Part shown: piece by piece, positions 1-51,195 of the stretch
Layout: each line of letters begins with the position of its first letter
Position numbering within the stretch: position 1 is the first letter of the stretch
Origin: Fabrea salina
Lineage: Eukaryota; Ciliophora; Heterotrichea; Heterotrichida; Fabreidae
DNA length: 64,000 nt
Assembly: GCA_022984795.1 (NCBI GenBank)
Contig: JALIHJ010000008.1
Location: 1-64,000 of the forward strand
Direction of reading: 5' to 3'
The notes under the pieces: model-generated
The model's database searches: none
The model's input: the letters and a program-made list of their open reading frames with translations, nothing else
Told to the model about the DNA's origin: nothing
Made by a program: the position numbers and the translations under genes

Positions 1-1844
1 AACACCCTAACACCCTAACACCCTAACACCCTAACACCCTAACACCCTAACACCCTAACACCCTAACACCCTAACACCCTAACACCCTAACACCCTAACA
101 CCCTAACACCCTAACACCCTAACACCCTAACACCCTAACACCCTAACACCCTAACACCCTAACACCCTAACACCCTAACACCCTAACACCCTAACACCCT
201 AACACCCTAACACCCTAACACCCTAACACCCTAACACCCTAACACCCTAACACCCTAACACCCTAACACCCTAACACCCTAACACCCTAACACCCCCTAA
301 CACCCTAACACCCTAACACCCTAACACCCTAACACCCTAACACCCTAACACCCTAACACCCTAACACCCTAACACCCTAACACCCTAACACCCTAACACC
401 CTAACACCCTAACACCCCTAACACCCTAACACCCTAACACCCTAACACCCTAACACCCTAACACCCTAACACCCTAACACCCTAACACCCTAACACCCTA
501 ACACCCTAACACCCTAACACCCTAACACCCTAACACCCTAACACCCTAACACCCTAACACCCTAACACCCTAACACCCTAACACCCTAACACCCTAACAC
601 CCTAACACCCTAACACCCTAACACCCTAACACCCTAACACCCTAACACCCTAACACCCTAACACCCTAACACCCTAACACCCTAACACCCTAACACCCTA
701 ACACCCTAACACCCTAACACCCTAACACCCTAACACCCTAACACCCTAACACCCTAACACCCTAACACCCTAACACCCTAACACCCTAACACCCTAACAC
801 CCTAACACCCTAACACCCTAACACCCTAACACCCTAACACCCTAACACCCTAACACCCTAACACCCTAACACCCTAACACCCTAACACCCTAACACCCTA
901 ACACCCTAACACCCTAACACCCTAACACCCTAACACCCTAACACCCTAACACCCTAACACCCTAACACCCTAACACCTCTAACACCCTAACACCCTAACA
1001 CCCTAACACCCTAACACCCTAACACCCTAACACCCTAACACCCTAACACCCTAACACCCTAACACCCTAACACCCTAACACCCTAACACCCTAACACCCT
1101 AACACCCTAACACCCTAACACCCTAACACCCTAACACCCTAACACCCTAACACCCTAACACCCTAACACCCTAACACCCTAACACCCTAACACCCTAACA
1201 CCCTAACACCCTAACACCCTAACACCCTAACACCCTAACACCCTAACACCCTAACACCCTAACACCCTAACACCCTAACACCCTAACACCCTAACACCCT
1301 AACACCCTAACACCCTAACACCCTAACACCCTAACACCCTAACACCCTAACACCCTAACACCCTAACACCCTAACACCCTAACACCCTAACACCCTAACA
1401 CCCTAACACCCTAACACCCTAACACCCTAACACCCTAACACCCTAACACCCTAACACCCTAACACCCTAACACCCTAACACCCTAACACCCTAACACCCT
1501 AACACCCTAACACCCTAACACCCTAACACCCTAACACCCTAACACCCTAACACCCTAACACCCTAACACCCTAACACCCTAACACCCTAACACCCTAACA
1601 CTAACACCCTAACACCCTAACACCCTAACACCCTAACACCCTAACACCCTAACACCCTAACACCCTAACACCCTAACACCCTAACACCCTAACACCCTAA
1701 CACCCTAACACCCTAACACCCTAACACCCTAACACCTAACACCCTAACACCCTAACACCCTAACACCCTAACACCCTAACACCCTAACACCCTAACACCC
1801 TAACACCCTAAACCCTAAAACTAACACCCTAACACCCTAACACT
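1..1844. repeat. telomeric repeat tract, (CCCTAACA)n
   Basis: About 230 tandem copies of the 8-mer AACACCCT run from base 1; the C-rich strand lies 5' to 3', as expected for a left chromosome end. The G strand reads TTAGGGTG. Rare variant units are visible: extra C's near 291-300 and 411-420, a CACCTCT unit near 971-980, a shortened CACTAA unit near 1600, an eroded unit near 1733, and a degenerate junction (AACCCTAAAA) at 1808-1821 before the last units. A poly-A tract at 1845 ends the array. The unit is known from heterotrich ciliates. Confidence 0.98.
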
Positions 1845-9715: not shown

Positions 9716-10039
9716 TTTATATCCTATTTTACAATTAGACTTATTCAAAATGCGACCCAAGAAAAGAAAACCCAATCAAAAAATTGCGGAAATTCAAGCT
9801 AGAGACCTAGGTGGCTTCACTAATTCCCATAAATAAATAAATGGGAGGTGGAAAAAGGCGGTAAATTAGGGACAAGAAGCATGAGATAATTCTGGGCGTA
9901 TTGGGAATGGCATTAATATATTTCTAAGACTTCTTGGGAAAATAACAAGATAGCTTGAGTAATTGGGACTAGCATTAAAAACTGCGAATTTCTAAGCCAG
10001 CTTACATTAGTTAAATAGGAGATTAAGTATGTTGTAAAA
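9716..10039. other. spacer with a small imperfect tandem repeat
   Basis: A 324-bp AT-rich spacer upstream of the zinc/HExxH gene and downstream of the WD40 gene. Two related units, near 9900-9935 and 9962-10003, share ATTGGGAMTRGCATTAA followed by TTTCTAAG. A TAAATAAATAAATG run lies at 9830-9843. A 28-codon frame starts at ATG 9750 but nothing supports it as a gene. Confidence 0.5.
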
Positions 10040-11080
10040 TTACACCAAGTTAACTGACCAAATTCTTGCATCATGGCCATCTAGTAACTGGGTTTGCTCC
10101 CTTGCTTCAAGACTCCAAACTCTGACTGAGTCATCTCCATTTCCGCCTCCAGAGACTATATAGGTATCATCTTTTGATATATTCACCGAAGTTACACCAC
10201 GGGTATGACCTTTGAAAATGTGAGTTTGTCTTCCAGAAGCAAGACTCCATACCCTGATAGTTTTATCGTTGCTTGCTGAAACAACGAATTGATCATTGCT
10301 AGAAATGGAAATTGAGTAAACATAACTAGTGTGGCCATTGAAAATTTGGGTTTGCTGTCCACTGCTGATATTCCAAACCCGAATAGTTCGATCCGAGCAG
10401 CCAGAAATGACCAAATTGCCATTAGTAGAAATAACCACTGATTCTACGCAGTGAGTATGCCCAGTAAAGACTCTAATTTGTTTTGCAGAAGTGAGACTCC
10501 ACACCCTGACAGTGTAATCCCAGCTCGCAGAAGCAATAAAATCACCTTTTTTAGAAATAGCTACCGACTCTACACACCCTGTGTGACCCTCTAGTAGTAA
10601 AGTTTGCTTCCCAGAGGCAACATTCCAGACTCTGATAGTTCTATCATTGCTTCCTGAGACAATGAGTTCATTATTGCTGGAAATAACTACTGACCATATC
10701 CAGTTATTGTGTCCTCTGAGCACTTGGGTTTGTTTTCCAGAAGAAAGGTTCCATACTCTGATGGTTTTGTCCGCGCTTCCGGAAACTATGAATTTCTTAT
10801 CGCTTGAGACAGCCACTGACTTAATTCCTCTGGTGTGTCCTTCCAGTACTTGGGTTTGTTTAAATGCAAGGACTTTTGGCATTTCGTGGTGAAAAGAAGC
10901 TTCGTAAAACTGAGTGCTGACTCTTGCGGTTCCGACCACTTCTGTGGGAGTCAAAAACTTAAACACTTCCAGCAGGGGCCTTAAGTTAGTTTTTACTTTG
11001 AAAGTGTATAACTTCTTAATAGGTCTCCACACTCTAATTGTTTTGTCGTCGCTTGCAGATAAGATTAGGTCAGAGTCCAT
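10040..11080 (-). CDS. WD40 propeller with inserted F-box-like helices
   Basis: A 346-residue WD40 protein. Six complete repeats of about 42 residues (GH ... SGS.DKTIRVW) follow one another. The seventh blade is split: the N-terminus supplies SASDDKTIRVW (residues 8-18) and the C-terminus ends with GHDARIWSVNLV, so the ring can close by the usual velcro. Between the first strand pair and the repeats, residues 30-65 form an F-box-like helical segment (LLEVFKFLTPTEVVGTARVSTQFY). If it binds SKP1 the protein would be a substrate receptor, but the F-box normally lies outside the propeller. The repeats are unusually alike, suggesting recent amplification. Target unknown. Confidence 0.8.
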   Translation of the reverse strand: MDSDLILSASDDKTIRVWRPIKKLYTFKVKTNLRPLLEVFKFLTPTEVVGTARVSTQFYEASFHHEMPKVLAFKQTQVLEGHTRGIKSVAVSSDKKFIVSGSADKTIRVWNLSSGKQTQVLRGHNNWIWSVVISSNNELIVSGSNDRTIRVWNVASGKQTLLLEGHTGCVESVAISKKGDFIASASWDYTVRVWSLTSAKQIRVFTGHTHCVESVVISTNGNLVISGCSDRTIRVWNISSGQQTQIFNGHTSYVYSISISSNDQFVVSASNDKTIRVWSLASGRQTHIFKGHTRGVTSVNISKDDTYIVSGGGNGDDSVRVWSLEAREQTQLLDGHDARIWSVNLV

Positions 11081-11140
11081 TTAACTTGCCACAGAGACTA
11101 TTTTTAACTTGCAAAAGGAGTTAGGGACCTGTAATCAAAG

Positions 11141-11683
11141 ATGTATTTAAGGAAAAAGTTTTTAAAAAGAGAAAGCAGAAGTCCTCTTGACAGCAAAGTG
11201 AGCAGTCTTAGGAGAACTCCAGTGCCTATGAGGAACTGTTCGCCGTACGCCAGGTCTCCAGTTCCTTCAAACATAAAGATTAAAAAGAGGCTTTCTCTTC
11301 TGCTTGAGAAAAAGTCAGAAACACAAAAACCCCACACTCGCAACAAAAGCACTATTATTTCTGACACGAATTTCAATGACCTCAAGTTTTACCCGTTTGG
11401 CCAAAGCAGAACTTCTAACAGATACGAAGGAACGGAAGAAAAGAACTTGGAAGAAAACTTGATATGTACTCCTACATCGTCTGAAAGCAACAACAACAAA
11501 AGCCAGATAATAGAAAAAAACATTCAAAGGTACTTCCGGCAAGAAATTGACCACCACTTGACAGACTCGTTTGAGGTTTCCAAACCAGTAAAGAAAAACT
11601 CTAAAATTAAGTTCCCTAAAATCACTACTAGGATTTACGAATCCGGGTTCAAAAAGAAAAAAAGGAACCTTTCAGTTTTGTAG
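11141..11683 (+). CDS. basic Ser/Lys-rich protein, unknown
   Basis: A 180-residue frame rich in Lys, Arg, Ser and Pro, with SP/TP motifs (RSPLDS, RTPVPMR, RSPVPS) and a lysine-rich tail (FKKKKRNLSVL). No domain recognised and it looks largely disordered. The ATG at 11141 lacks the usual A/T tract directly before it, which lowers confidence. It is convergent with the LIN9 gene, with 9 bp between the stops, the typical local spacing. The many SP/TP sites would suit a cell-cycle or cytoskeletal kinase substrate, but that is inference. Confidence 0.6.
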   Translation: MYLRKKFLKRESRSPLDSKVSSLRRTPVPMRNCSPYARSPVPSNIKIKKRLSLLLEKKSETQKPHTRNKSTIISDTNFNDLKFYPFGQSRTSNRYEGTEEKNLEENLICTPTSSESNNNKSQIIEKNIQRYFRQEIDHHLTDSFEVSKPVKKNSKIKFPKITTRIYESGFKKKKRNLSVL

Positions 11684-20771: not shown

Positions 20772-22298
20772 ATGTTGTCGGGAATCAAAATAGCACTTGC
20801 AGCAATATTCACTATGAATCTTGCTCTGAATTACTTCGTAAAAGAAATGAGTCTCCAAAACTTTCTGAGGGAAAGTGCAGTGGAAGTCCTTGAGTTTGAA
20901 GATGCTCCAAGAGTTCCCTTGGAAGATTCAGAGCCCTGGAACGAGTACTTAGAAAAACTCGAACTCAACAAAAAAGACCTTAACTTACTTGACGACGAAG
21001 AGTATTGCAACAAGGTCCGAGAGTACAGGGAAAAAAACCCCATCCAATTCGATTCGCGGGGATTACCTACAAAAGAGTACAGAACTGTGTTTTCTGAGTT
21101 TCCACGCTCTGATTTTGTGGGAAACGTTCTTTCTAACTACACAACTCTTGTAAATAAAAAGCACATCCTCGGAGCTAACAAAGACAAAATCCCCTATGAG
21201 CCTATCAGTCCTGCTGCAACTATTTTCTTCCACATAAGACCCACTTGGCACTACAAACACCAAATGGGAGTCCACTTTCTTTGCGAAGGCCAGCGCTACA
21301 ACCACATCCATGGAAACCTTTGGCTTAGCTTCAAAGACATCACAGCTAACAAGATAAGAGAGTACTCTCAGTACTACAAGGGAAGAGAAGACTGTTTCGA
21401 CCCCTGGAAAGTCGTCCCCTACACTCTAGACATCACTGACTATGAACAGTGCCAGCATTTCAAAACCCTCCTTTTAGACGACCAGTATGAGTACGACGTT
21501 AAGTGGATGCTCAAAAAAGGACGCTATGCTCATAACGGAGTAGGTGTTGTTCCTGTCGACCAAGAAAAAGCCAGGGAAATCATCAATGAAGTCGAATGCC
21601 CCTACGGAAATTACTACTTAGCCCAAAGATACATAAAGAACCCCATGCTTATACACAACCGCAAGTTTGACTTCAGAACCTATTTGGCCATTGCTAACAT
21701 GGATCCCCTCATAGTTCTTTACCATGACGGGTTCATCAGAATGTCTATGAGCGAATATGACCCACACAGCGGCGACAGGTCAACTCACCTGACTAACCTG
21801 AAAGTGGCCCAGAAAACTATGGACACTCGCAACCTCACTAAGTCCGAACAAGAAATGCTCCTCAAAGACCAGAGTTGGTCTTACACCCACCTCCACAACT
21901 ACCTCACGAACTTAGGTTTAGTTGGTGAAGACTGGCTGGACACCTACCTCCGAAAGAAACTCAAAGAAAACATGTTCCACATTGTAAGGATGAACTTAGA
22001 CAAGTTAATGAAGCACCCCCAGGTGTTTGAGTTGTTTGGGCTGGACTTTTTGCTAGACACAGACCTGAACCTTTGGTACATAGAAGCCAACCTGACACCA
22101 AGCATCAGTGGCACTTCTGACGAGAAAAGAGAGTTAAACACTAAGCTTATTACGGACTTGATTGACCTTGAGTACGCTTTGATGTACAATGGAGACTTTG
22201 ATGAAATACTAAAAGGGACCAACTATGAAGTAATATTTGACGGGAGGAAGAAAGGCCTGGACAGGTACTCAGGAGTGATTGAAAAAAGGTGTTTATAA
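20772..22298 (+). CDS. tubulin-tyrosine-ligase-like enzyme with N-terminal anchor, copy 1
   Basis: A 508-residue protein. A hydrophobic segment at residues 3-22 (SGIKIALAAIFTMNLALNYF) looks like a signal peptide or type II anchor. The TTL-type ATP-grasp domain follows: YLAQRYIKNPMLI, KFDFRTYLAIANMDPLI, HLTNLKVA, LFGLDFLLDTDLNLWYIEAN with the metal-binding E and N. TTLLs ligate Glu, Gly or Tyr to tubulin and other proteins in the cytosol; an N-terminal anchor is unusual. Cysteines in YCNK, FLCEGQR, DCFDPWK, EQCQH and ECPYG are also present in the neighbouring paralogue, which would suit a lumenal, disulphide-bonded enzyme. Activity is not predictable from sequence alone. Confidence 0.8.
   Translation: MLSGIKIALAAIFTMNLALNYFVKEMSLQNFLRESAVEVLEFEDAPRVPLEDSEPWNEYLEKLELNKKDLNLLDDEEYCNKVREYREKNPIQFDSRGLPTKEYRTVFSEFPRSDFVGNVLSNYTTLVNKKHILGANKDKIPYEPISPAATIFFHIRPTWHYKHQMGVHFLCEGQRYNHIHGNLWLSFKDITANKIREYSQYYKGREDCFDPWKVVPYTLDITDYEQCQHFKTLLLDDQYEYDVKWMLKKGRYAHNGVGVVPVDQEKAREIINEVECPYGNYYLAQRYIKNPMLIHNRKFDFRTYLAIANMDPLIVLYHDGFIRMSMSEYDPHSGDRSTHLTNLKVAQKTMDTRNLTKSEQEMLLKDQSWSYTHLHNYLTNLGLVGEDWLDTYLRKKLKENMFHIVRMNLDKLMKHPQVFELFGLDFLLDTDLNLWYIEANLTPSISGTSDEKRELNTKLITDLIDLEYALMYNGDFDEILKGTNYEVIFDGRKKGLDRYSGVIEKRCL
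21780..22156 (+). repeat. 377-bp tract identical to 23295-23671
   Basis: By reading both tracts base by base I see no difference over 377 bp (constant offset 1515). Flanking coding sequence of the two genes is far more diverged. It covers the HLTN-to-TPS half of the TTL domain. Confidence 0.9.
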
Positions 22299-22355
22299 TG
22301 TATTTAAAAGGTGTTTATATACAAATTGTTAACCGATAAAAGTTCCATATATATA

Positions 22356-23813
22356 ATGTATTTTCCGAGAAACTTTTTGGTACTTTGTATCTTTGCAGTG
22401 AATTCACTGCTGATATATATATATGACACCCAGAACTATTCCTCTGGGGAGTCTTTACAAAGCAGCTCACCAAATTTCCGGAAACTAGTGAATTTTAGCG
22501 AGCCAAACAATTACTTCACTCAGTATGGATTATCTTACTGTGATGAAGTTGCAGAGTACCAAAAAAGGAAAGGAATAGTTTTTGACAGAAGAGGTTTACC
22601 CACTCTAGAACACAGAAAGGTCTTTACGAGTTACTCAAAGGGGAAACTCGTAGGAGATGCACTTTGGAACAACACCAATGTTGTCACTGACTGGGGAGCT
22701 TCAAGGACCAACAGGCCACCAATCAGTCCCTCTGCTGACATGTTCTTCATTAAAAGAGAGTTTTGGTATAAAAGAAGGACGATTGGCAAAGACTTCCTTT
22801 GCGAGGGACAAAGGTTTAATCACATTATAGGGAACAACTACATTGGAGGCAAGAAGCACACAGTTACGCAAATCCAAAAGTACGCAGAGTACTATAAGGG
22901 CCGGGAGCACTGCTTCGACCCCTGGAAAGTAATGCCTTACACACTTGACATGACAGACAAAAAACAATGCAAGGAGTTCTTAGAAATTCTAAGGTCTCGG
23001 AACACCTTTGAAGGCATTAACTGGATGCTTAAACTAGGAGGAAACATCCACAATGGAAAAGGAGTCAGTCCTGTTGACCAAGACTTAGCAAGCAAATTGC
23101 TAAACAAGACCTGTCCATTTAAGTACGACTACTTAGCCCAAAGATACATAAAGAACCCTATGCTTATACACAACCACAAGTTTGACTTCAGGGCTTACTT
23201 AGTCATTGCTAACATGGATCCCCTCATAGTTCTTTACCATGACGGGTTCATCAGAATGTCTATGAATGAGTATGATCTGAATAGTAATGATAAATCAACT
23301 CACCTGACTAACCTGAAAGTGGCCCAGAAAACTATGGACACTCGCAACCTCACTAAGTCCGAACAAGAAATGCTCCTCAAAGACCAGAGTTGGTCTTACA
23401 CCCACCTCCACAACTACCTCACGAACTTAGGTTTAGTTGGTGAAGACTGGCTGGACACCTACCTCCGAAAGAAACTCAAAGAAAACATGTTCCACATTGT
23501 AAGGATGAACTTAGACAAGTTAATGAAGCACCCCCAGGTGTTTGAGTTGTTTGGGCTGGACTTTTTGCTAGACACAGACCTGAACCTTTGGTACATAGAA
23601 GCCAACCTGACACCAAGCATCAGTGGCACTTCTGACGAGAAAAGAGAGTTAAACACTAAGCTTATTACGGATCTTGTAGATATAGAATACGCTTTGATGT
23701 ACAAAGCAGACCTAGATAGCATACTGAAAGACACTAACTTTGAGGTGGTGTTTGACGAAAGACAAGAAGGAATGAAGCAGTATGCAGGACTAATTAGCGA
23801 AGAGTGTGTATAA
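22356..23813 (+). CDS. tubulin-tyrosine-ligase-like enzyme with N-terminal anchor, copy 2
   Basis: A 485-residue paralogue of the preceding gene, started at ATG 22356 (TATATATAATG context); the longer frame begins with GTG. The N-terminus again has a hydrophobic anchor (FLVLCIFAVNSLLIYIY). The N-terminal half is only moderately like copy 1, yet keeps all the notable cysteines (YCDE, FLCEGQR, HCFDPWK, KQCKE, TCPFK). The catalytic half is almost identical, including a perfect 377-bp DNA tract. Tandem duplication followed by recent gene conversion explains this. It sits 57 bp after copy 1 on the same strand. Confidence 0.8.
   Translation: MYFPRNFLVLCIFAVNSLLIYIYDTQNYSSGESLQSSSPNFRKLVNFSEPNNYFTQYGLSYCDEVAEYQKRKGIVFDRRGLPTLEHRKVFTSYSKGKLVGDALWNNTNVVTDWGASRTNRPPISPSADMFFIKREFWYKRRTIGKDFLCEGQRFNHIIGNNYIGGKKHTVTQIQKYAEYYKGREHCFDPWKVMPYTLDMTDKKQCKEFLEILRSRNTFEGINWMLKLGGNIHNGKGVSPVDQDLASKLLNKTCPFKYDYLAQRYIKNPMLIHNHKFDFRAYLVIANMDPLIVLYHDGFIRMSMNEYDLNSNDKSTHLTNLKVAQKTMDTRNLTKSEQEMLLKDQSWSYTHLHNYLTNLGLVGEDWLDTYLRKKLKENMFHIVRMNLDKLMKHPQVFELFGLDFLLDTDLNLWYIEANLTPSISGTSDEKRELNTKLITDLVDIEYALMYKADLDSILKDTNFEVVFDERQEGMKQYAGLISEECV
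23295..23671 (+). repeat. 377-bp tract identical to 21780-22156
   Basis: Second copy of the converted tract. Identity breaks at TAAATCAACT on the left and at GGATCTT versus GGACTTG on the right. Shorter identical stretches occur upstream (the ATGGATCCCCTCATAG region), consistent with more than one conversion patch. Confidence 0.9.
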
Positions 23814-46699: not shown

Positions 46700-47209
46700 A
46701 TGGAATTTCAAAGTATCCTGGTTAAAAACATTTCTCCCCAAGCCACTGAAACTGAGCTCTTTGAGTTCTTTTCTCAGTTCGGACAAGTAAAGGACTTAGA
46801 GTTCCCCCAAACTAAGTACCCTGAAACTCCTAAGTACGCTTACATTTCTTACCAAGATGCTCAACAAGCTGAACTAGCAAAGTCCCAAGCTGAAGGAACT
46901 AAATTCCACAACCTTGCAATCAAGGTGGAAAGCAGCTTAAGAACAGACTACACAAAGATCAACCAGTTAGTAGACTCAGTTTACCACTTTGCAGTTGAGC
47001 ACGCCAGTAAGTTCACTCCTATTACCACTTTGAGTGCAGAAGAGTCTTTCCACAGAATCAGACAGTACGTTAAAACTTACCACCCTTTTTCGACTCCGAA
47101 GCTCATGCACCACTTCAGGTGCGAACTTGAAATAGAAAGTGTCACTGAACTTGCAGCTGACACAGACAAGCTTGAAGAATACATTCAGAAAGTTGAAAGT
47201 TTAGCTTAA
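46700..47209 (+). CDS. RRM RNA-binding protein
   Basis: A 169-residue protein started at ATG 46700; an ATG at 46682 would overlap the divergent gene's coding start. Residues 5-78 form an RRM: RNP2 SILVKNISP, helix ETELFEFFSQFGQVKDLEFP and RNP1-like PKYAYISYQDAQQAELA. The aromatic RNP1 positions are Tyr-Tyr rather than Phe-Phe. The remaining 90 residues are helical. It contains GTAAAGGACTTAGAG, a GT..AG 15-mer, but that codes the conserved RRM segment and is not an intron. Its last 9 bases overlap the convergent methyltransferase gene. Confidence 0.85.
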   Translation: MEFQSILVKNISPQATETELFEFFSQFGQVKDLEFPQTKYPETPKYAYISYQDAQQAELAKSQAEGTKFHNLAIKVESSLRTDYTKINQLVDSVYHFAVEHASKFTPITTLSAEESFHRIRQYVKTYHPFSTPKLMHHFRCELEIESVTELAADTDKLEEYIQKVESLA

Positions 47210-48199
47210 ACCACTTATCATATAAGAATCTGAAACAGGGACAAACTCAACAGTCTGGAACCCTGCTTGGCCGAAAAGAGCCTGGAACTGCTCTTTGGTC
47301 CTTTCTTTGCCTCCAAACTGCATCATCATTTCAATGTCTTTGAGTCTTTGCAAAGGGTAGTTTGGGCTGTTTCTGTCTACTAAAGTTTCGACTGCTAAGA
47401 GTTTGCCTCCGTTTTCTATGCTTTCTTTGCAGTTCTTCAGCAAACACAAGCACTTTTCGTCGTTTATGTAGTGAAGTGTTTCCTTAATAAGTATAGTGTC
47501 GAACTTTTGGGGAAAGGGTTCTACTAAGTCAGACTCAACTACTTGAACTCTTTGAGTCAAGCCGCCTTTTTGGATGGTTTCAGAGGACAGTGGAGCGAAC
47601 TGGGGTGTTTGCAAAAGACAAGCTGAAACTTGGGGGAACTTTTGCAACAGGCCCATTAACAAGTTAGGAAACGACTCACTTATATACAAAAGGTTTTGGG
47701 TTTGGTTTAAGTCAATTGACTCTAAGAACTCTTCAAGGCCTTTTTGACTTTCAGCAGTAATTAAGTCAAGGTAGCATCTGTACTGGTCTGGGTGTTCTTT
47801 AAGGGCTTCAGGTAAGGACTTGTTTTTGCTGATTTCTAGTGCAGACTTGTTTTGACTCAAAGACTCAGGGAAGTGGGCTATAGTTTCGTAGTTAATAGGA
47901 AGAGCAGAAAACTCTGTAAGAGTTCTGTTGGGTTCACTAAGTAACTCAAGACTTTTTTGAGAGTTACTCCAGGTGTTAGAGTCAATATCCCTTTTAAAGT
48001 ACCCATAGCACTCCAAACTCAGAAGAATCCCTTCTAGTCTGTTTGGAATAGTTCCATTTTGGGTAGCTAAGTCTTCAACTGTTTTGGGAGAATCTGCTAA
48101 AGCTTCTGGAATTCTGAGTCTCAAAGCTGTTGAAACCAATGCCCCTATCAAGGGACTCATTCGGATCATGTTGAGTCTTTGCTCTACTATAGAGTTCAT
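47201..48199 (-). CDS. COMT/HIOMT-family O-methyltransferase with altered SAM motif
   Basis: A 332-residue protein started at ATG 48199. The N-terminal winged-helix dimerisation domain (LRIPEALADSPKTVEDLATQNG, NRLEGILLSLECYGYFKRD) and C-terminal catalytic features (FDTILIKETLHYINDEKCLCLLKNCKESIENGGKLLAVETLVD, MMMQFGGKERTKEQF, AGFQTVEFVPV) are those of plant/bacterial type O-methyltransferases, with the catalytic His in LHYINDE. The glycine-rich motif I (normally DVGGGxG) instead reads NLLYISESFPN, so SAM binding may be changed or lost. It is divergent from the MysC-like gene, 27 bp between the starts, and may share its promoter. Confidence 0.85.
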   Translation of the reverse strand: MNSIVEQRLNMIRMSPLIGALVSTALRLRIPEALADSPKTVEDLATQNGTIPNRLEGILLSLECYGYFKRDIDSNTWSNSQKSLELLSEPNRTLTEFSALPINYETIAHFPESLSQNKSALEISKNKSLPEALKEHPDQYRCYLDLITAESQKGLEEFLESIDLNQTQNLLYISESFPNLLMGLLQKFPQVSACLLQTPQFAPLSSETIQKGGLTQRVQVVESDLVEPFPQKFDTILIKETLHYINDEKCLCLLKNCKESIENGGKLLAVETLVDRNSPNYPLQRLKDIEMMMQFGGKERTKEQFQALFGQAGFQTVEFVPVSDSYMISGLS

Positions 48200-48226: not shown

Positions 48227-49708
48227 ATGGCAGAAATCCACACTTTGCCTAGAACAAGGGCTGCCTTGACTTTGTTTGTTTTGCTAGTCACCATTCCGGT
48301 TTCTTTGTTTCTAGTGCTGTGTTCAGTAGCATCTGGAATTCTAAACTCAGTCCGCAAACCACTTACCACAGGAGTTATTCCTCAGTTGGTGTTTTGTGTT
48401 GGAGTTGCTTCGCTCACATACTTAAACTCTGGGGTTTGTGCAAGTGTGTTTTTCACTGGACTTTCAGTGGTGGCTTTTTATTTTTCAAAGGACATAAAAC
48501 CAACTGAGGCAACAGTGATGGTGACAGGAGGCAAAATGTCTAAGTCACTTCACTTTGCAAGGTGGTTTTGGAAGTGTGGGTACCGAGTGGTGTTAGTAGA
48601 GACTTCAGACTTTTGGTGTTCAGGGTCTCGGTTTTCAAGAGCAGTCTCAGCATTTTACACAGTGACTCCTCCAACCTTAAACAGACAAGCCTACATTTCT
48701 GAGCTCTCAAGCATTGCCCAGAAAGAGTCAGTCAAGTACTTTGTCCCTGTTTCAAGTGCCTTAGACTCTGTTAACGACTCTTACGCCAAAACTGCACTTG
48801 AGAAACTAGGTTGTGTTGGGTTGCACTTTTCCCCAGAGATCACTGAAATTCTTGACCAAAAACACAGTTTTTCAAAGTTCGTAGAAGAAAAACTGCCGCT
48901 CAGAGTGCCTAGGTCTTACAAAGTGGAGTCCAACTCAGAGGTTCATTCGCTGAATGAGTCTTTGAAAGGGGAATTTATACTTAAAAACTTAGCTTATGAC
49001 CAAATTCACAGACTAGACATGTTCAAATTGCCTTGCTCCAAAGAAGAACTACAGCAGTACTTAAATTCTTTAGAAACTCCTATAAGCAAAGAACACCCCT
49101 GGCAAGTCCAAGAGTTCATAAAGGGAACCGAATACGCTGCCTTTGCTGTGTTGCGTGAAGGAAACATCCGAGCTATTGTAGTTTCTGAATCTTCTTCTTC
49201 GCAACTCAACTATTCCCACAAAGAAGTTCCTCAAATCGAGGAGTGGCTAGAAGGCTTTGCAAAGGGCACTAAGTTGACAGGGCAAGTTAGCTTTGACTTC
49301 ATAGTAGACAGCTCCCAAACTGCTTACTGCATTGAATGCAACCCTAGAGTACACTCGCAGTGCTCAGTGTTTCTGGACAAAGAAGAGTTTGGAGAGGCTG
49401 TGCTTGCAGAGCACTGGGAGTGTACTTTGAAGCCTTCCAAGAATTCACCTGAAGCTTACTGGTTTTACAACGAGTTTTTCAAGTTACTGCCTAACTGGGT
49501 GTTTAACTATGGGTCTAAAAGTTTGAAGGAAGTAACCACTACACTGAAGGGCAAAGAAGCAATACTTGAAAGTGAAGACCCCCTGCCCTTTTTGATGATG
49601 AATCACTTCCAAGCTTTTCTTTTAGTCCTGAGTACCTTTGTGAGGGGAAGGCCCTGGAAAAAGATTGACTTCTGCATAGGCAAGGTGGTAGAACTTAATA
49701 GTCACTAA
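48227..49708 (+). CDS. MysC-family ATP-grasp ligase (mycosporine pathway type)
   Basis: A 493-residue protein. Hydrophobic helices occupy residues 10-85. Then comes an ATP-grasp enzyme: VMVTGGKMSKSLHFARWFWKCG, RVVLVETSDFW, RFSRAVSAFYTVTPP, ILDQKHSFSKF, EFILKNLAYD (ATP-binding Lys), WQVQEFIKGTEYA, GQVSFDFIVDSS and metal-binding IECNPRVHSQ. The C-terminal YWFYNEFFKL, EDPLPFLMMNHFQ and KIDFCIGKVVE match what I recall of cyanobacterial MysC, which joins glycine to 4-deoxygadusol to make mycosporine-glycine, a UV screen. The membrane N-terminus also fits MysC. Substrate identity here is inference; the partner synthase (MysA/DHQS type) is not in the window. Confidence 0.8.
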   Translation: MAEIHTLPRTRAALTLFVLLVTIPVSLFLVLCSVASGILNSVRKPLTTGVIPQLVFCVGVASLTYLNSGVCASVFFTGLSVVAFYFSKDIKPTEATVMVTGGKMSKSLHFARWFWKCGYRVVLVETSDFWCSGSRFSRAVSAFYTVTPPTLNRQAYISELSSIAQKESVKYFVPVSSALDSVNDSYAKTALEKLGCVGLHFSPEITEILDQKHSFSKFVEEKLPLRVPRSYKVESNSEVHSLNESLKGEFILKNLAYDQIHRLDMFKLPCSKEELQQYLNSLETPISKEHPWQVQEFIKGTEYAAFAVLREGNIRAIVVSESSSSQLNYSHKEVPQIEEWLEGFAKGTKLTGQVSFDFIVDSSQTAYCIECNPRVHSQCSVFLDKEEFGEAVLAEHWECTLKPSKNSPEAYWFYNEFFKLLPNWVFNYGSKSLKEVTTTLKGKEAILESEDPLPFLMMNHFQAFLLVLSTFVRGRPWKKIDFCIGKVVELNSH

Positions 49709-49746: not shown

Positions 49747-50319
49747 ATGTCTATTCCGAACTACTGTGATGTGAACTACTGGAACAAAAGGTACCAAGAA
49801 CAAAGCAAAACTACCTTTGACTGGCTTGAAAACTTTGAAGGCTTGAAGGACTACTTACTTCCTTTGGTGTCAAGTGAGTCCAAAGTCCTCATACCAGGAT
49901 GCGGCAACTCGCAACTAGGAGAACATTTGTACCAAAAAGGAATTGAAAGGGTGTTTAACGTTGACTTTTCAGAGTCTGTGATAGAAATTATGAATCAGAC
50001 CCACAGAGACAAGCTTTGCATGAAGTGGGAAGTTATGGACGTCCAAAGTCTTTCTTACCCTTCTGAGTACTTCGACCTTGTGCTTGACAAAAGCACTCTG
50101 GACACTCTTCTTTGTGAAGTAAAGCCCTCTGCTGAGTTGGCCTTGGCTCAGTACTTCAGAGTTTTAAGGAAGGGTGGCAAGTGCTTAATCGTAAGTTTCA
50201 ACGAGCCCAGAACTATGCTTCCTTTGGTTTCCCAGCAAACTAGGGCCTTCACAGTTACTCGGACTGGGAGTGAGGCTTTTCCAAACTACATTTACTGTCT
50301 TCAGAAAGAGGCTGAATGA
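49747..50319 (+). CDS. EEF1AKMT4/METTL13-like methyltransferase
   Basis: A 190-residue class I methyltransferase. It starts with the family hallmark DVNYWNKRYQEQSKTTFDWLENFEGL, then motif I VLIPGCGNSQLGEHLYQKG, VDFSESVIEIMNQ, WEVMDVQSLSYPSEYFDLVLDKSTLDTLLC and RVLRKGGKCLIVSFNEPR. Relatives methylate lysines of translation factor eEF1A or other proteins; the substrate here is unproven. It ends with TGA, evidence for a standard code. GTAAGTTTCAACGAG within it resembles an intron but fits the protein and preserves family spacing, so it is kept as coding. Confidence 0.85.
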   Translation: MSIPNYCDVNYWNKRYQEQSKTTFDWLENFEGLKDYLLPLVSSESKVLIPGCGNSQLGEHLYQKGIERVFNVDFSESVIEIMNQTHRDKLCMKWEVMDVQSLSYPSEYFDLVLDKSTLDTLLCEVKPSAELALAQYFRVLRKGGKCLIVSFNEPRTMLPLVSQQTRAFTVTRTGSEAFPNYIYCLQKEAE

Positions 50320-50370: not shown

Positions 50371-51195
50371 ATGGTGGAAGCGTTATCAGGGCTATGCATG
50401 GGGCTGACGTCTGTGTTAAGTGCATACCCCATTGAGTAATTTTTAGTCAGCACCATCAAAGTCAGAATGCAGTCAGGAAATTTTCCAAGCATAACAGCAT
50501 GCTTAATTCAATCCTTAAAAAAAGAAGGAATTCGAGGCATGTACAGTGGAGTGTCGACTCTGCTCTACATGGCACCACTCAGGGGGTCTTTGGTGTTCAG
50601 TACTTACAGAAGAGCTTACGACCTAGCCCCTTTTGAGAGTTCTGTGTGGAAAGGAATGTGCGGAGGACTGGCTGCAGGATCGGTGATTTCAATGGTTGCG
50701 TGTCCTTTTGAAATCATCAAGTGCAGGATGCAAGTTAGAACTCCAGAAGGCTCCAAGCACTACAGTTCAATTTGGCAGTGCGTTAAAGCAATCTATTCTA
50801 CAAGGGGAGTGCCTGGGTTCTTTGTGGGGTTCTACATGACGGGACTGAGAGAAATACCTGGAGCTGGACTGTTTTTTGCAGTGTACGAGTATGGAAATAG
50901 CAAACTGAAAGAAAAGTACGGACAGATTCCTTGGTGGGGGTTTTCACTAAGCGGAGCAGCAGGAGGACTTGCTTTTTGGGGGGTTTTTTACCCAATAGAC
51001 ACAGTTAAGACCCTGGCACAAATCACTGAACCTCCTTCTTCGCCAAAAGTGATTTGGAAAATGATAATGGAGAAGGAGGGTGTTCTGGGGTTCTACAAAG
51101 GAGTTACTTCTACAGCTGTGAGGACATGCATTTCATGTGCAACAGGCTACTTCACCTACGAGCACGTCAGAAAGGCTTTAATGAGTTACGACTAA
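50371..51195 (+). CDS. mitochondrial carrier (SLC25 family), one 15-nt intron
   Basis: Exons 50371-50435 and 50451-51195 encode 269 residues. Splicing restores the first carrier signature, PIDTIKVRMQ; the second is PFEIIKCRMQ and the third PIDTVKTLAQ, one per repeat of about 90 residues, giving six membrane helices. Without splicing the gene stops after PIE. Closest in style to the carnitine/ornithine branch (SLC25A20/A15), but the substrate contact residues do not let me choose. The stop abuts the RPC5 stop on the opposite strand with no base between. Confidence 0.92.
50436..50450 (+). other. 15-nt intron in carrier gene
   Basis: GTAATTTTTAGTCAG, phase 2 (GA/C). Its removal creates the invariant Asp of the PxDxxK carrier motif, the strongest proof in this window that 15-nt introns are spliced. 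Confidence 0.97.

Follow-up and report, generated by a model that had tools for sequence, protein, structure and literature searches.

The window analysed here, 64,000 nucleotides of the ciliate Fabrea salina, is the start of contig C81 (JALIHJ010000008.1) in an assembly of 18,328,466 bases and 103 contigs. Because telomere repeats are found at both of its ends, C81 looks like a whole chromosome (Table 1). The window contains mysC1, a gene for a MysC-type ATP-grasp ligase; its reading frame, pointed out in the first-pass annotation, is confirmed as real, intact (ATG to TAA, no internal stop) and belonging to the MysC family. It is surrounded by genes for an O-methyltransferase, for a small methyltransferase that by resemblance is probably a housekeeping lysine methyltransferase, and for a mitochondrial-carrier-like protein, in which excision of the intron restores the motif PIDTIKVRM. 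Such a telomere unit and introns of so small a size are in keeping with a heterotrich ciliate. The location of mysC1 on a ciliate chromosome, as the first-pass annotation had it, was borne out by telomeres at both ends, by the nearby 15-nt intron and by ciliate-like codon usage.

Table 1. Features of the mysC1 locus and related features elsewhere in the assembly. Plain positions refer to the window.
Feature	Position	Strand	Remarks
Telomere, (CCCTAACA)n	1..1800 (about)	.	window start, C81
O-methyltransferase (Methyltransf_2; weak dimerisation domain)	47201..48199	-	head-to-head with mysC1, 27 bp between chosen ATGs
mysC1, MysC-type ATP-grasp ligase	48227..49708	+	493 aa, without intron; profile, BLASTP, tree, column and structure-model evidence
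Small class I methyltransferase (Methyltransf_11)	49747..50319	+	profile match
Mitochondrial-carrier-like gene	50371..51195	+	15-nt intron 50436-50450; 0.7 kb downstream of mysC1
mysC2, MysC paralogue of mysC1	C81:327209-328738		60% identical to mysC1; 4.7 kb from contig end
Telomere, (TTAGGGTG)n	other end of 333,450-bp contig C81		sequence
Relatives of the 47201-48199 O-methyltransferase	G000:C35:34530, C45:128426, C37:188908, C16:60884, C16:61948		

The MysC1 protein scores 304 bits (E 1.8e-90) with the NCBIfam model PRK06849, below its curated cut-off of 406, and matches Pfam ATP-grasp_3 weakly (18.2 bits; cut-off 23.2). In BLASTP, query residues 80-492 align with mysC from a mysA-mysB-mysC cluster of Nostoc (287 bits; 40% identity in 421 columns). 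Alignments of MysC relatives from 51 loci to MysC1 mostly begin around residue 96, three of them at residue 15, and reach the IDFxIGKxVE end. The likeness to cyanobacterial MysC, which had been claimed for the whole length, therefore stands for the body and for the C-terminus through IDFxIGKxVE; the N-terminus shares the hydrophobic character but aligns poorly. Among solved structures the sequence found a single match (E 0.18) and none clearly related. An AlphaFold2 model built from 14 sequences has a mean pLDDT of 74.4, with block means of 69-97 for residues 91-410 and low confidence in the N-terminal helix and the C-terminal part. Its best PDB matches in Foldseek are biotin carboxylases, a CPS-like protein and PurK-type and L-amino-acid ligases, and the protein is predicted by this model to have the ATP-grasp fold. 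K253, E370, C371, N372, P373 and R374 of MysC are invariant across 12 rows; the conserved lysine and the ECNPR motif presumably play their roles known from ATP-grasp ligases.

A MysC2 query matches 11 plasmid records, of which the gene of the Nostoc mys cluster is 42% identical and the other ten 22-29%. Upstream of the Nostoc plasmid mysC lie a 3-dehydroquinate synthase-like gene, then an O-methyltransferase gene, and a D-Ala-D-Ala ligase-like gene is nearby. We built a MysC tree of 38 rows (the two from the ciliate and 36 chosen by hand from the 86 extracted), in which both ciliate copies group with 30 cyanobacterial rows and one Nocardioides row, against five ATP-grasp relatives from plasmids (100/100). 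The proposed MysC-type identity is thereby upheld for both copies. Within the MysC clade the branch of the ciliate pair is long (1.64), which the tool warns of, and the tree resolves no sister to it. Conserved columns were taken from 71 mys-type rows (one Nocardioides row and some genomes twice included; 10 of 81 rows, of at most 400 aa, were dropped). MysC1 and MysC2 each match 88 of 128 near-invariant columns, the five outgroups 40% on average, and of the 48 columns never seen in these outgroups they keep 26 and 25, respectively. With this degree of retention a shift of substrate is possible. Judged by its sequence, the product of mysC1 is a MysC by descent, though diverged (ciliate MysC, 34-47%). 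Duplication of MysC is also seen in cyanobacteria: one Nostoc cluster holds adjacent copies (L059:8331-9677 and 9827-11188) and genome G177 has three MysC matches.

Of 185 pattern matches obtained by scanning 84,980 species genomes, 51 encode a MysC relative, 50 in cyanobacteria and one in Nocardioides. Matches to mysA and mysB accompany it in 47 of the 51 loci and a mysD match in 36; some of the four loci without mysA (L034, L041, L050, L056) are cut by contig ends. No MysC relative occurs among 106 pattern matches in viral contigs. When 386 cyanobacterial genomes were searched with MysC2 at E<=1e-30, 41 gave a match. Each of the 41 also has a MysA-type match of at least 150 bits, which starts within 5 kb in 38 of them.

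The first-pass annotation had proposed a search of the full genome for mysA as a check on its reading. Such a gene is indeed present and encodes a full-length MysA that shares 71% identity with its counterpart in a Halothece-like cyanobacterium; a mysD is there as well. The DHQ_synthase model PF01761 finds two cyclase genes only. One of them (contig C61) lies in a frame of 1401 codons with an EPSP-synthase-like part behind and appears AROM-like by eye. The other (C11) is the MysA, 580 aa long with an N-terminal extension of about 150 residues; its best matches among solved structures are 5tpr (249 bits) and 4p53 (178 bits), presumably Anabaena DDGS and ValA. It is 65-71% identical, from residue 1 to 569-578 and thus with the extension included, to proteins in six of the 386 cyanobacterial genomes, 43-46% to MysA of the Crocosphaera/Okeania type and 35-38% to MysA of the Nostoc type. 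The MysA tree, made of 36 of 101 extracted rows with the ciliate row from residue 151 on, contains three other sedoheptulose 7-phosphate cyclases and five DHQS-like rows. In it, the ciliate MysA and the six N-extended cyanobacterial rows form one clade (100/100; internal order not resolved), and this clade groups with a second MysA subtype (100/99). By bits and tree alike, the C11 cyclase is nearer to the MysA of mys clusters than to DHQS or any other cyclase compared. The second subtype is itself 38-41% identical to Nostoc MysA and occurs with mysB, mysC and mysD at L019, L022, L024, L030, L040, L045, L049 and L058.

Near relatives of the ciliate MysA do not always occur together with MysC. 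At E<=1e-30, MysC is matched in three of the six genomes with N-extended MysA (G378, G131 and G080), which are also the only three of the 41 where it is unlinked to mysA; G225, G180 and G221 (L118, L119, L121) gave no match at this threshold. The latter might use the N-extended cyclase as an orphan or make a product without MysC. Among the six, the MysD subtype described below is present only in G378 and G131.

With a Nostoc MysD query one gene was found in the ciliate genome, on contig C1 (41%). This gene shares 55-61% identity with a second subtype of MysD, known from seven of the 386 cyanobacterial genomes and from loci of Okeania and Prochloron, among others. The ciliate MysD has retained all 65 near-invariant columns (over 61 of 65 rows), as well as 27 of the 31 columns typical of the subtype, some of them gap columns. 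In a tree of 35 of 65 extracted rows it falls into the subtype clade with mys-cluster Ddl homologues (13 rows, 89/83; subtype 1, 96/92). A search of the ciliate genome for MysH, which we take to be the palythine-type dioxygenase, gave only one match (24%, E 3.1e-5). The loop of the ciliate subtype looks different in the alignment, so we did not extend the omega-loop rule for MysD (PMC11983340) to it, and the product is therefore not firmly predicted.

An orthologue of MysB was not found in the ciliate assembly with two queries, MysB of Nostoc and of G378. The only sizeable match is a generic O-methyltransferase on C48 (39% and 37%), which is 47% identical to a Nostoc O-methyltransferase (L057) and 34-49% to the best 30 of 127 plasmid records. 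As a MysB it was rejected, since a tree of 24 rows (18 of 78 MysB rows, five generic ones and C48) places it outside MysB (100/100), on a long branch with a warning from the tool. The O-methyltransferase that is divergently oriented to mysC1 shows no likeness to MysB, and by position only it is a candidate for the missing methylation step. Its 27-bp gap to mysC1 is ordinary, because short divergent gaps are common in the window: six hand-picked divergent pairs, the mysC1 pair included, have gaps of 60, 7, 53, 91, 27 and 113 bp. A relationship to the methyltransferases beside mysC in some cyanobacteria was not supported (19-23% and 52-85 bits to those of L048, L052 and L065; a Streptomyces plasmid gene reaches 114 bits). 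There are five weaker relatives in the ciliate genome (27-35%), two of them adjacent (Table 1).

The codon score, which compares ciliate with Halothece-like usage, is 0.18 to 0.31 per codon for mysA, mysC1, mysC2 and mysD. The range of 0.13 to 0.40 for 23 reference genes of the window and that of -0.22 to -0.36 for three cyanobacterial genes are partly built in, because the scored genes helped to make the models: the model applied to the reference genes was built from those same genes, and three of the four genes behind the Halothece-like model are the ones scored. GC3 of mysD (0.388) is about 1.9 SD below the reference genes (0.465, SD 0.040). The neighbour of mysD is an enkurin gene; near mysC2 there are genes for choline kinase, an amine oxidase-like protein, inositol monophosphatase and PIP5K, and near mysA genes for a flavin monooxygenase, GH16 and an SfsA-domain protein and two without family. 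Contamination of the assembly by a cyanobacterium could account for a MysA with 71% identity to a cyanobacterial protein, and the telomere evidence comes from the MysC contig. Nevertheless, telomeres at either end of that contig and an intron 0.7 kb from mysC1, with PIP5K and choline kinase near mysC2, all but rule contamination out for mysC1 and mysC2, and it is unlikely for mysA and mysD in view of their codon usage and of neighbours such as enkurin; for the mys genes as a whole we regard its probability as negligible. The SfsA-domain gene adjoining mysA (L007:5747-6922) belongs to a mostly prokaryotic family and is possibly another transferred gene.

Several known systems can be compared with the ciliate genes. 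In Halothece sp. PCC 7418, mysA (PCC7418_1590) and mysB-mysD (PCC7418_1078-1076), expressed in Synechococcus, yield mycosporine-2-glycine (PMC12981126). Our genome G378 has mysA between glutamate-synthase-like and transporter-like genes (assigned by eye), and mysB, mysC and mysD together about 0.57 Mb away on a contig of 4,179,170 bp. Because this arrangement matches the published one (PMC12981126), we take G378 to be Halothece PCC 7418, which it resembles. Its proteins are 71% (MysA, full length), 57.5% (MysD) and 41-44% (MysC) identical to those of the ciliate. In G378, too, mysA stands apart from the other mys genes; the ciliate differs in having two MysC, no MysB orthologue found and its mys genes spread over three contigs. 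Nostoc-type mysABC(D) clusters, like that on the plasmid of Nostoc sp. HK-01, are more distant: MysC is 40% identical over 421 columns, whereas MysA (38%) and MysD (41%) represent other subtypes. Among eukaryotes, green algae have been proposed to use a mosaic route to mycosporine-like amino acids (MAAs) with another cyclase and an extra methyltransferase, and as in the ciliate an ATP-grasp gene related to MysC shares its neighbourhood with a gene for an O-methyltransferase; they are reported with EEVS and MT-Ox (PMC7826186), while the ciliate matches to DHQ_synthase are MysA and the AROM-like gene only. Dinoflagellates carry MAA gene clusters and, likened by description, are alveolates as the ciliate is, but photosynthetic and with clustered genes (PMC9298759).

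We consider it probable that mysC1 and its paralogue mysC2 both serve an MAA pathway that a heterotrich ciliate gained by horizontal transfer. In MAA chemistry, as given in PMC11983340, MysA and MysB convert sedoheptulose 7-phosphate to 4-deoxygadusol, MysC adds glycine and MysD a second amino acid. The ciliate genes are intact members of their families with ciliate codon usage, MysC has its modelled fold and lies on a telomere-capped chromosome, and the relatives co-occur in other genomes. Catalysis, substrates and product, as well as expression, regulation, the methylation step and the donor, are inferred. MysA would cyclise sedoheptulose 7-phosphate and an O-methyltransferase other than MysB would methylate the ring. 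MysC1 and MysC2 would then join glycine to 4-deoxygadusol at the expense of ATP, giving mycosporine-glycine, to which MysD would attach another amino acid; this may be glycine, as it is in Halothece. The product might be a sunscreen absorbing near 330 nm and possibly an osmolyte as well. Going further, a heterotrophic ciliate may make its own mycosporine-2-glycine (or a close relative) with cyanobacterial genes from salt ponds, an unrelated host O-methyltransferase, perhaps that at 47201-48199, replacing MysB; this fuller version we put forward tentatively, with confidence well short of even. The points against the pathway are the missing MysB orthologue, the diverged MysC columns, the occurrence of N-extended MysA without MysC in three of six genomes and the spread of the genes over three contigs.

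Four other explanations have to be weighed. The enzymes might make a different C7-cyclitol amino acid conjugate, unmethylated or methylated elsewhere, instead of a standard MAA. That MysC is found in only three of the six genomes with N-extended MysA lowered our confidence in the MAA pathway and in its fuller version and raised it for this explanation. Each ciliate MysC also departs at 40 of 128 conserved columns, MysB was not found and a mosaic route with other enzymes has been proposed for green algae (PMC7826186). The complete set of near-invariant columns in MysD, on the other hand, argues for the usual mycosporine-glycine substrate, and we hold a different conjugate to be unlikely. Alternatively, MysC and MysD might only modify 4-deoxygadusol or mycosporine-glycine salvaged from prey, the core not being made by the cell. 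The lack of a MysB orthologue in the assembly would suit such salvage. Bursaridium is a ciliate reported to contain MAAs from its diet, in a paper that assumes food or algal symbionts as the source of MAAs in ciliates (PMC5478918); the same text does not exclude up-regulation by ciliates themselves. A full-length MysA, kept with ciliate codon usage and 71% identity to its cyanobacterial counterpart, speaks against salvage, which appears quite improbable. Least credible of the functional alternatives is an ATP-grasp ligase with an unrelated substrate, alike to MysC at the superfamily level only. Although the PRK06849 score lies under the curated cut-off, weak matches to this model occur in 8 of 14 control genomes and plasmids carry ATP-grasp relatives outside mys clusters, ten of the 11 plasmid matches to MysC2 reach just 22-29% against 42% for the mys-cluster gene, and the tree, the co-occurrence and the presence of mysA and mysD in the same genome make this very improbable.

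The fourth explanation concerns the origin only. A eukaryotic alga, either eaten as prey or once harboured as a symbiont, might have passed on genes that it had itself received from cyanobacteria. Dinoflagellates with MAA gene clusters (PMC9298759) and green algae with MysC relatives (PMC7826186) provide possible intermediates, and the MysC tree gives the ciliate pair no resolved place among cyanobacteria. Against this, the nearest MysA rows are cyanobacterial, 65-71% identical over the full length, in a comparison confined to non-eukaryotic sequences besides the ciliate's own, and an algal donor seems to us possible, yet rather unlikely. Transfer from a cyanobacterium or an alga had been suggested as the origin of mysC1: cyanobacterial affinity is evident in MysA, MysD and MysC, and for each of the genes the donor may have been either.

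The enzyme classes and the pathway are known; what is new is that a ciliate carries such genes, scattered over its genome, with MysC doubled and MysB missing. Fabrea salina is a UV-hardy organism, and if the proposed pathway exists, a sunscreen or osmolyte of its own would underlie this hardiness. Relatives of three of the four enzymes that cyanobacteria use for MAAs are encoded in the ciliate's own genome. This suggests that captured genes may let it produce a sunscreen of its own, and it becomes directly testable where a grazer of salterns gets its UV protection. The metabolic route would also have been put together bit by bit, from genes transferred between organisms that share a habitat. 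The dominant biota of salterns include Fabrea salina, at 184-203 psu, and a cyanobacterium, Aphanothece sp., at 190-476 psu (PMC10303847), and the Halothece genes were first described as those of Aphanothece halophytica (a title cited in PMC12981126). MAAs are known from ciliates, where algal symbionts or food are regarded as their source, and according to a paper of 2017 the pathways of MAA synthesis had yet to be identified for ciliates (PMC5478918). In agreement with the first-pass annotation, which knew of no ciliate mycosporine pathway, no report of MAA genes in a ciliate was found among the listed titles and abstract openings of the ciliate and mycosporine literature, a collection with few subscription journals; in passages of papers linking Fabrea and mycosporine, Fabrea figures only in references or as a grazer.

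A separate observation concerns another part of the window. A tandem pair at 20772-22298 and 22311-23813 has 3' parts that are 92.7% identical over 631 bp, the only other match being 77.5% over 80 bp, which looks like gene conversion of one half.
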